A stretch of DNA of 64,000 nucleotides, taken from assembly GCF_038404985.1 (NCBI RefSeq), contig NZ_JBBKBA010000001.1, positions 1,764,001 to 1,828,000 of the forward strand, given 5' to 3'. A program made the translations under genes and the position numbers. Of the stretch, positions 59,351 through 63,271 are shown in pieces (within the stretch, counting starts at the first letter, position 1; every line of letters begins with the position of its first letter). The DNA comes from Ferrovibrio sp. MS7. Lineage in GTDB: Bacteria; Pseudomonadota; Alphaproteobacteria; Ferrovibrionales; Ferrovibrionaceae. The notes below the pieces were generated by a model. It saw nothing but the letters and a program-made list of their open reading frames with translations. It was not told the DNA's origin and made no database searches.

Positions 59351-59388
59351 GTGTTACGATTTTCCATTCGATCACTCAGGGAATCGCC

Positions 59389-60024
59389 ATGCTCACCGTG
59401 CATCATCTCGGCAAGTCGCAATCCGAACGCATCGTCTGGCTCTGCGAGGAACTGGGCATTCCCTATGACCTCAAGGTCTACCAGCGCGCGCCGCGCCTGG
59501 CGCCGCCGGATTACAAGGCGCTGCATCCGATGGGCAGCGCACCAGTCATTACCGATGGTCCGGTTACGCTTGCGGAATCAGGCGCCGTGGTGGAATACAT
59601 CCTGGCGAAATACGGCGAGGGTCGCCTGGCGCTCGGCAAGGATCATCCGAATTTCGCCGACTATCTCTACTGGCTGCATTTCGCCAATGGCACGCTGCAG
59701 CCCGGCTTCATGCGGCTGATGGTGACAACATTGCTCGATGCCCCGGTTGATAACCCGACGCGGCAATGGGGCGAGAAGCGCCTCGCCCAGGCGCTCGGCC
59801 TGATGGATCAGCGCCTCGGCGCCACCCCCTGGCTCGCTGGTGCTGAATTCACAGCGGCAGACATCATGTCGGTGTTCTCCCTCACCACCATGCGCCACTT
59901 CCAGCCCTACGACCTCACGCCTTATCCGCATATCCGCGCCTACCTGCAACGCGTCTCTGCGCGACCGGGCTACAGCCGAGCGATGGCGAAGGGCGATCCG
60001 GGGATGGAATTGCTGTTGGGGTGA
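59389..60024 (+). CDS. Glutathione S-transferase family protein
   Basis: A 211-residue protein with the N-terminal thioredoxin-like domain (LTVHHLGKSQSERIVWLCEE; PVTLAESGAVVEYI, with the glutathione-contacting ESGA) and the C-terminal helical domain. The ATG follows TCAGGGA. Substrate unknown. It is the last gene before the AT-rich TIR gene, to which it is convergent. Confidence 0.9.
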   Translation: MLTVHHLGKSQSERIVWLCEELGIPYDLKVYQRAPRLAPPDYKALHPMGSAPVITDGPVTLAESGAVVEYILAKYGEGRLALGKDHPNFADYLYWLHFANGTLQPGFMRLMVTTLLDAPVDNPTRQWGEKRLAQALGLMDQRLGATPWLAGAEFTAADIMSVFSLTTMRHFQPYDLTPYPHIRAYLQRVSARPGYSRAMAKGDPGMELLLG

Positions 60025-60074
60025 GGGACGCCCACTAAAATGAGCGAACGTCTCGACTAATCTAAAGTATATAT

Positions 60075-62630
60075 CTAGTGCCTTCGCATGTCTCCCGTCT
60101 TGTGGTTCTTAGCCCATTCTTGCATTTCGGTATCAGCTTCGCGTGGAGTTGCAGAAATATGCCTCGCCAGTTGATCAAGCAAACGTACTTTCAGAGAGTT
60201 GGAAATGTGTTTGGCGTTGTTGATGTGGTTGCGTGCATCACGAAATCGCTTTCGTTCCATAAAAATGCGAACCTCGAGCTCCTCTACAGCCCCTTCTTCT
60301 CCTTCCGATGATCCTGCTTCTGCAAGTATGCGTGTTAGAGCCTTAAGATCAGCTTCCGCTGCCTCACAATCCGATGCGGCTAGATGAATCTCTGCCCTAA
60401 TAAAATAAGCATCAGGCAGGTTTGGGGTTCTTTCAATTGCGCGATTGATTGATGAGAGCGCTTCTTGACGGTTTTTATTCTTCAATTTTTGCTGTGCGTC
60501 CCGAACCAAGAAGAATGACGAGCCGGGCGCATCTCCATATATCTTTAATTGGTCCATTATGTGGGAAAGCTCTTTTTGATCAACGCGCAACCCCATTCCA
60601 AGTTTCCCCAGTAGGGTGTCCGCAAAAATATCAAGAATGAATGGATTGGTTGGTGCAATCTTATACGCAGCTCGAGCGTGTACCTCTGCATCTTGATAGC
60701 GGCGCTGTCGGCAATACAAGCTTGCTAGCTCTCTGTTTACGCTTTCATTAGATGGAGTGAGTTTCCATGCCTCTTTGAATTTTCCTTCAGCAATATCGAG
60801 TTGTCCTCTGCGTCTTGCTTCGAATCCTTCCAAAAAGAATCCTACGCGCTTCGCGATTGGGCTCGCATACTGTTTGAGTTGTTCTAGGATGTGGTCAATC
60901 ATTTGACGTTTCTTTAATCTTACTGCGGAAAGCCCCCACAATCTAAGGGCCTCTACCTGTGCATCTATGGGTAGGCGGTTTTTCATTCCATATGCGCGTT
61001 CGCAGAATTCCATGCACGGCCCTCTCTTGCCGGCATCATAATATTCTTTAGCGATGCGCAGGAGGTGGGAGGGCAATACTAGCGTGGATAAAAAAGCAGG
61101 TGGGTTTACTGCTCTGGCAGCTGCCAAAGTTGCGCTTTGAATAATTGTAACTGGCATATGGTCGTCATCTTCATAGCCGTCAATTAAAGCGCAGATTGCT
61201 TGTCCTATTTGTTGTTTCCAGGAATCATCCCTATGAAATCGATCGTCTCTCCTCATTCCATCTCGAATTGGAGGGGAGATGTGGAAGTAATGCTCTCGCA
61301 GCTCTACGCAGCAATGCTCTTGAAGTCTTTTTATTGCTTGCGTCACTACTATTGAATCCTCATCTAATGCCGCAATTAATGTATGTGAATCTAAGTATTG
61401 ATACTCGGAAAGAATGGCCATTAAATCTTCTTCAATGGCGCTAAATTTTATTTTCCGCAAGAAATCGACGGCTCGTCTATTCTTCCAGTCGATTAAATCG
61501 CTGGGGTCAGTTAGCAAAGAATCAATTCCAAAATTGAGGATAAACTGGATAACAAATCGTATGTTATACGGGTGCCCGTCAATCAAATTGGCTATTTCAC
61601 TTACTTGGGCTTCTGAAAAGCTAATTCCAAATTCCTTAAGCGTAAGACTAACAAGCTCTATTATTGTTTCAGTAGATAGGGGTTTTAAGTATTGGTGAAA
61701 TGTGCGCCCAAGGTTTTGGCGACGTGAAAATGGCATCATTCTAGTCTGAATGAATCCGAGAGAAGGCTGCCCTGCTGATTTAAGTTGATCGAGTAGATCG
61801 GCGAGAAATGGTTGCAGTTCGCCGTCATCGGTTAGAGCTCCGCCATTATCTATGACAATGACAAACTCATTGTGCAGGGCCATATTTCTAATTACACGTC
61901 CGATTTCTGCCGCTTGATTGATGGCTGGCATCTTTGAGAAAGATAAGAACGCATTGTATGTTTCATCAGCGGAAGCAACTTCACTTAGGGTGAATAATTG
62001 TCGATAAAGTTCTTCTGGCCCTTCAAATTGCCCCAAGGTTACTTCAACGAAAGTGTTGTACAAACGTGGGAAAAATTTTGATAGGGATTTGGAAAGAAAA
62101 GTGCGCCTACCAATGCCATAATGGCCAACGGCATGTAGATATATTGGCGTACTCTCTGGCGGTGCTATAATAGCCTTCCTAAGATCGCTCTCGTCTGTTT
62201 CCCTGCCAAGATACAGCCCAATGCCTTGGTCTTCTTGGGCTTCTAGCTCCATTAAGGCAACTTGTATTTGTCGCGCACACATTTTTGGAGAGCTGATTTT
62301 TCGAACTATGTTTATATCTTGCAGCCACCCCGGTAGGGCTTTGTGGGATGTTTGATCAAGAGCAAATATTAATACTCGTTTAATAAGCCCTTTCCCTCTA
62401 TTCTCTAGGGCAGCTCTAAGTTCTTCGTTGACATAAGAAGATGCAATGGAATTTTGAGATAGAAAAAAAACAAAAAGATTGCAACGGTTTAGCGCATTGT
62501 GAATGGCTTGAACATTTAATTTGTACTCAAATGTCCATTCATCATATTCAATTTGAGTCTTTCCAAGTTGCTCCGCAACTTGCCGAATGAATGCTTTATC
62601 TTTGCTGCTGTGGGATAGAAACGCAGTCAT
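60075..62630 (-). CDS. TIR-STAND NTPase-TPR (NLR-like) protein, putative defence gene
   Basis: An 851-residue protein with three parts. Residues 1-125 are a TIR domain beginning MTAFLSHSSKDKAFI, with a likely NADase Glu at residue 70 (SSYVNEEL). Residues ~160-480 are a STAND/NB-ARC-like NTPase with P-loop GHYGIGRRTFL (169-179, the Walker A Lys being Arg175), Walker B VIVIDNGG (D261) and the GxP-type motif IDGHPYNIRF, then a winged-helix region. Residues ~500-760 carry TPR-like helical repeats. The gene is much richer in A+T than its surroundings. Sensing by repeats and TIR NAD depletion is known of related antiphage proteins; here it is inference. The ribosome site is AGGGGAA. Confidence 0.85.
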   Translation of the reverse strand: MTAFLSHSSKDKAFIRQVAEQLGKTQIEYDEWTFEYKLNVQAIHNALNRCNLFVFFLSQNSIASSYVNEELRAALENRGKGLIKRVLIFALDQTSHKALPGWLQDINIVRKISSPKMCARQIQVALMELEAQEDQGIGLYLGRETDESDLRKAIIAPPESTPIYLHAVGHYGIGRRTFLSKSLSKFFPRLYNTFVEVTLGQFEGPEELYRQLFTLSEVASADETYNAFLSFSKMPAINQAAEIGRVIRNMALHNEFVIVIDNGGALTDDGELQPFLADLLDQLKSAGQPSLGFIQTRMMPFSRRQNLGRTFHQYLKPLSTETIIELVSLTLKEFGISFSEAQVSEIANLIDGHPYNIRFVIQFILNFGIDSLLTDPSDLIDWKNRRAVDFLRKIKFSAIEEDLMAILSEYQYLDSHTLIAALDEDSIVVTQAIKRLQEHCCVELREHYFHISPPIRDGMRRDDRFHRDDSWKQQIGQAICALIDGYEDDDHMPVTIIQSATLAAARAVNPPAFLSTLVLPSHLLRIAKEYYDAGKRGPCMEFCERAYGMKNRLPIDAQVEALRLWGLSAVRLKKRQMIDHILEQLKQYASPIAKRVGFFLEGFEARRRGQLDIAEGKFKEAWKLTPSNESVNRELASLYCRQRRYQDAEVHARAAYKIAPTNPFILDIFADTLLGKLGMGLRVDQKELSHIMDQLKIYGDAPGSSFFLVRDAQQKLKNKNRQEALSSINRAIERTPNLPDAYFIRAEIHLAASDCEAAEADLKALTRILAEAGSSEGEEGAVEELEVRIFMERKRFRDARNHINNAKHISNSLKVRLLDQLARHISATPREADTEMQEWAKNHKTGDMRRH

Positions 62631-62653
62631 TGAATTTCCCCTATTTTAGTTTT

Positions 62654-63271
62654 CTATGGCTCCGTCACTGCCAGCTTAACACCAAGCCCGACGAAGGCCG
62701 CCGCAAAAGTCCGCCGCAGCCACAGCATCACGCGCGGGCGCGTCAGCACATGGTCGCGCATGGCGGCGGCGAACAGGCCGTAGACGGCGAAGACCGCAAA
62801 CGTCATCGCCATGAAGACGGCGCTTAAGGTCAGCATGCTGCCGAGCGGCGCCGGGTCGTTGGCCGCGATGAATTGCGGCAGGAAGGCGAGGAAGAAGATC
62901 GAGAGCTTGGGGTTGAGGATGTTCACCAGCACTGCCTCGAGCGTGATCTGCCAGCCGGAACGGGGCGCACCGTTGGCCTGAGCGGAGAAGCTCATGGCGC
63001 CGCGCTCGCGCCAGGTTGCCCAGGCCATGTAGAGCAGGTAGGCGACGCCGGCATATTTCACGATCTCGAAGGCCAGCGCGCTGGCATGCAGCAGGGCGGC
63101 GAGGCCGGTGATGGCGGCAAGCATATGCGGCACGATGCCGAGCGTGCAGCCGAAGGCCGCGATCACGCTGGCGCGGCTGCCGCGCCCCAGACCGGCGGCG
63201 ATGGTGTAGACCACGCCGGTGCCGGGCGTGGCGACGACGATCAGCGAGATAATCAGGTAATCCAGGCTCAT
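62654..63271 (-). CDS. LysE/RhtB family amino acid exporter
   Basis: A 205-residue inner-membrane protein with about six helices and the family pattern VVATPGTGVVYTIAAGLGRG, in which the more common PGP is PGT, plus NILNPKLSIFFLAFLPQFI. It exports amino acids such as homoserine or threonine; the substrate is unknown. The TIR gene starts only 23 bp beyond its stop on the same strand and could be read through from it. Confidence 0.9.
   Translation of the reverse strand: MSLDYLIISLIVVATPGTGVVYTIAAGLGRGSRASVIAAFGCTLGIVPHMLAAITGLAALLHASALAFEIVKYAGVAYLLYMAWATWRERGAMSFSAQANGAPRSGWQITLEAVLVNILNPKLSIFFLAFLPQFIAANDPAPLGSMLTLSAVFMAMTFAVFAVYGLFAAAMRDHVLTRPRVMLWLRRTFAAAFVGLGVKLAVTEP

Follow-up and report, generated by a model that had tools for sequence, protein, structure and literature searches.

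The gene at positions 60075-62630 of the window (the whole 64,000-nucleotide stretch of Ferrovibrio sp. MS7 DNA that was analysed) encodes a TIR-STAND-TPR protein. We interpret it, with a probability of roughly 0.83, as a single-gene system that was acquired horizontally and belongs, as a divergent member, to the anti-phage family TIR-NLR, and which would combine TPR sensing, STAND oligomerisation and Glu70-dependent depletion of NAD+. This reading is favoured by the family match, the foreign composition, the absence of the gene from sister genomes and the defence context of its relatives.

The gene forms a single intact open frame of 851 codons on the minus strand, with its ATG at 62630 and its stop at 60075. 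The initial annotation had these coordinates right, and the strand required correction; a plus-strand reading of the same positions meets 46 stops and is ruled out. As had also been proposed, the gene stands alone, in a compositionally distinct interval with the following layout:

59380..60024, plus strand: glutathione S-transferase (GST) gene, the conserved left border of the slot (Pfam, relatives)
60025..62653: GST-LysE interval with foreign, low-GC cargo, GC 43.7% against ~65.6% in the flanks
60075..62630, minus strand: TIR-STAND-TPR (TIR-NLR family) gene, 851 aa (open reading frame, Pfam, PADLOC, alignment, model)
62631..62653, minus strand: the 23 bp that separate the stop of LysE from the TIR-NLR gene, including an AGGGG that resembles a Shine-Dalgarno sequence and lies 7 nt ahead of the start codon (sequence)
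62654..63271, minus strand: LysE-type translocator gene, the conserved right border, codirectional with the TIR-NLR gene (Pfam, relatives)

Given this short distance from the stop of a codirectional gene, the TIR-NLR gene may be read from the LysE transcript. A promoter and terminator scan around the gene gave matches at chance level and none above it. The TIR-NLR gene is the sole TIR_2 match found in a search of the Ferrovibrio sp. MS7 genome.

Its composition marks it as foreign to the host chromosome. The gene has a GC content of 44% and a GC3 of 39%, compared with 63-71% and 76-88% for its neighbours. One flank holds pal, ybgF/cpoB, tilS, ftsH and GST, the other LysE and an MFS-like gene. 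Nine genomes of the same genus lack the TIR-NLR gene; among them is a conspecific genome with an assembly that is only 72% complete. In that same-species genome the GST-LysE locus is present and is filled differently, with a Sll1717-family P-loop ATPase (481 aa) in DNA of 41.5% GC.

Comparison of the interval in eight genomes, Ferrovibrio sp. MS7 and seven others (L064-L070), extends this picture. The cargo of the others includes a HigB/HTH pair matching PD-Lambda-2 A/B, and an Mrr_cat-like nuclease that lies just at the Pfam cut-off and has a PADLOC candidate match. Further cargo comprises a HigB-like toxin accompanied by an HTH protein, a 238-aa protein and metabolic hydrolases, and four genomes have in common a gene beside GST, in shared DNA, whose sequence suggests a GATase-like product. 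The cargo across the eight genomes is mostly low in GC. Since the seven same-genus genomes carry unrelated cargo, the slot is best described as a variable cargo space that is not exclusively devoted to defence. The placement between housekeeping genes that was originally described is thus correct for the core-gene flanks, but the setting is not a plain housekeeping one. No integrase was found at the slot, and no convincing flanking repeats at the TIR-NLR insertion.

The protein itself divides into three regions, all on the minus strand:

62301..62630: TIR domain, residues 1-110, holding Ser6, His7, Tyr66 and the putative catalytic Glu70 (Pfam TIR_2, alignment)
61236..62213: STAND NTPase core and winged helix, residues ~140-465, with a G142-R143 box, a non-canonical P-loop G169-HYGIG-R175-R-T177, Walker B D261 and G352-H-P354 (alignment, model)
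60081..61073: TPR superhelix, residues ~520-849 (~850) (Pfam TPR matches, helix-pair pattern in the model)

The initial annotation had recognised all three in the one chain, with an NB-ARC-like module at the centre. Pfam detects the outer two, TIR_2 at residues 4-107 (6.6e-14) and TPR_16 (4.9e-8), both above cut-off, but returns no NB-ARC match at E<=1 and no NACHT match. The STAND core is assigned despite this because the PADLOC TIR-NLR model PDLC03015 gives a full-length match (residues 2-769 of 851, 5.2e-38) and because of the AlphaFold model (pLDDT 80.8, pTM 0.70), in which a central STAND NTPase fold with a winged helix is predicted. A search of the whole genome with PDLC03015 also recovers the gene. 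Structure prediction points the same way: against the PDB, the best matches of the model include the STAND-TPR protein 6mfv (1e-12), the plant TIR-NLR RPP1 (2e-7) and Apaf-1 (3e-7), and generic TPR proteins are returned alongside them. Because the TM-scores over the whole chain are low (0.22-0.34 by query), these matches support domain identity and not overall shape. Searching a viral structure library with the model gave generic TPR/AAA matches only.

Among solved structures the best relative is the 824-aa chain 9m0n/9umd, matched at 4e-36 by the single sequence; a profile built from 12 relatives brings the match to 9m0n to 2e-227. An E. coli homologue of 824 aa matches both the PADLOC model and 9m0n end to end (1-824 in each case). 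In E. coli FEX669 the gene for this homologue is flanked by psu, which encodes phage polarity suppression, and by a tyrosine integrase beside tRNA-Leu; judged from its gene order, this layout is that of the P4-like satellite hotspot in which TIR-NLR was discovered. Rousset et al. (2022; PMC9122126) describe a TIR-STAND-TPR single gene, cloned from a P4-satellite hotspot, that protects against phages, including P2-like phages; in the portion of that paper dealing with this gene, NAD+ loss is proposed rather than measured. By sequence, 9m0n is likely to be the very protein of that study. The kind of system seen here is therefore already validated as anti-phage, and the Ferrovibrio gene is a divergent TIR-NLR member, not a new system; the earlier interpretation was essentially correct, but of a kind already known.

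How far does the resemblance extend? The two proteins share the TIR-STAND-TPR order, the single-gene organisation, residence in a variable genomic slot and a similar length (851 aa and 824 aa), together with the conserved TIR glutamate, an arginine at the Walker-A lysine position and the GxP motif. They differ in location, a chromosomal GST-LysE slot here and a P4 satellite there, and in sequence. Identity between the Ferrovibrio and E. coli proteins is 22% over 787 columns, with the divergence greatest in the C-terminal tail, so that function is inferred across a long distance. A near-identical E. coli gene occurs in 26 of 5,426 complete E. coli genomes when a viral-contig relative is used as the query. 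The copies of a near-identical E. coli-type relative on a viral contig (L086:7998-10471) and in APEC IMT5155 are split into two frames; intact copies are present in other genomes among those listed.

Homologues near defence genes, which the initial annotation took as a mark of a defence system, are found. The closest chromosomal relative (32% identity) has a GC content of 50% among genes of ~0.6-0.67 and adjoins an EcoRII-C endonuclease, Vsr, a C5-methyltransferase and a phage integrase. On an Acetobacter plasmid the relative adjoins type I R and S genes, in Komagataeibacter it adjoins UvrD and PD-(D/E)XK genes, and two relatives on viral contigs lie near lysozyme-type genes. These neighbourhoods, as read from the sequences, fit a mobile defence gene. 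Among GenBank phage records there is no match to the protein, and a contig search of genomes with the single protein gave one fragment only. Upstream of a Zymomonas plasmid relative is a 904-aa HD-CE/HATPase protein (L058:2246-4960) that has no PADLOC match.

Residue conservation was counted in an alignment of 25 non-redundant full-length sequences that includes the Ferrovibrio protein. Glu70, the putative catalytic residue, as had been suggested, lies within a W/Y-V-x-x-E motif and is kept in all 25. Ser6 is invariant, His7 is present in 24/25, and position 66 is always Trp or Tyr, Trp being the commoner and Tyr, as here, occurring in five. Within the STAND core, Gly142-Arg143 (25/25), Walker-B Asp261 (22/25) and Pro354 of the G-x-P motif (25/25) uphold the Walker B and GxP elements first described; the P-loop is present but is not canonical. 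The loop, G169-HYGI-G174-R175-R176-T177 (window 62097-62126 for residues 169-178), departs from the Walker A consensus GxxxxGK[ST] and follows a family pattern, G-x4-G-R175-[R/K]-[T/S], in which every sequence has Arg at the lysine position and 21 of the 25 follow it with Arg or Lys instead of Ser/Thr. The solved relative 9m0n has GLIGVGRRS. A first AlphaFold model, from 6 sequences, left the P-loop unresolved; a second, from 12, to which the pLDDT and pTM given above belong, resolved it as a strand (164-169), a loop and a helix from 175, placing R175 at the lysine site. With arginine in this position, NTP hydrolysis may be weak or absent, and this one feature calls for caution before a normal ATPase cycle is assumed. 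Mean pairwise identity is highest in the TIR domain (38%), compared with 18-25% in other segments and 15% in the C-terminal tail, a profile that would be expected of a constant effector and a diversifying sensor.

By analogy with the TIR-NLR family, the STAND core would keep the TIR domain inactive in the resting state. Binding of a phage-made protein or other infection cue by the C-terminal TPR superhelix would open the STAND/winged-helix module and allow it to oligomerise; the clustered TIR domains could then consume NAD+ through Glu70, and the infected cell would stop growing ahead of phage release, in an abortive infection.

AVAST (Avs) STAND defence proteins, plant TIR-NLRs such as RPP1, and Apaf-1 follow the same general plan, in which the STAND switch links an effector at the N-terminus to repeats at the C-terminus. 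RPP1 and Apaf-1 are fold matches to the model, but no sequence-level match to any of these proteins was found, and the Ferrovibrio protein has TPR in place of LRR/WD40 repeats and an arginine at the site of the Walker-A lysine. Thoeris ThsB and other bacterial TIR effectors have in common with it a TIR_2 domain with a conserved Glu, whereas here the TIR is fused to STAND-TPR in one chain.

Some TIR domains make signal nucleotides from NAD+. The TIR domain here could likewise produce such a signal (e.g. a cADPR isomer) for a separate effector, as in Thoeris, instead of depleting NAD+ itself, and it does have weak ThsB-type profile matches (Pfam 0.002, PADLOC 3e-6). We consider this improbable, as no ThsA or other partner gene adjoins the gene in its interval and the E. 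coli TIR-NLR acts as a single gene in the account of Rousset et al. (PMC9122126); a genome search for the Thoeris-associated STALD domain gave no match, a result that carries no weight because its controls were silent too. More improbable still is a regulatory or house-keeping TIR-TPR signalling protein unrelated to defence. Detection of TIR and TPR alone by Pfam, and the metabolic or transport functions of the flanking genes, would suit such a role, but it accords poorly with a full-length match to a validated defence family, with foreign GC and absence from sister genomes, and with relatives on viral contigs, on plasmids and beside restriction genes. Both proposals rank low, below NAD+ depletion by a TIR-NLR.

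Could the gene instead have been acquired and since decayed, or be inactive? The arginine at the Walker-A lysine site and Tyr66 in place of Trp might suggest so, but relatives share both substitutions, the 851-codon frame is open behind a plausible ribosome-binding site, and the conserved TIR and STAND residues are kept. Decay is accordingly the least probable of these explanations.

As a highly divergent TIR-NLR, and a single gene that is easily cloned, it broadens the known range of a validated bacterial NLR immune system. It also brings to attention a Walker A that is non-canonical and, within the sampled family, apparently invariant. The GST-LysE slot, in turn, is a small chromosomal place in which to seek other defence genes. 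None of these findings overturns current knowledge. We offer tentatively, and as a joint proposal that is rather doubtful, that TIR-NLRs are STAND receptors of a class in which Arg invariably replaces the Walker-A Lys (and Arg/Lys usually replaces the Ser/Thr after it), and which may switch when nucleotide is bound or released, or in response to ligand by itself, with no normal ATP hydrolysis, and that the chromosome in this genus has, in the GST-LysE gap, a hotspot that takes up small defence cargo and lacks an integrase. Finally, on one viral contig a second TIR-domain protein, of 267 aa (L103:223-1026), is encoded ~750 bp from a TIR-NLR relative.
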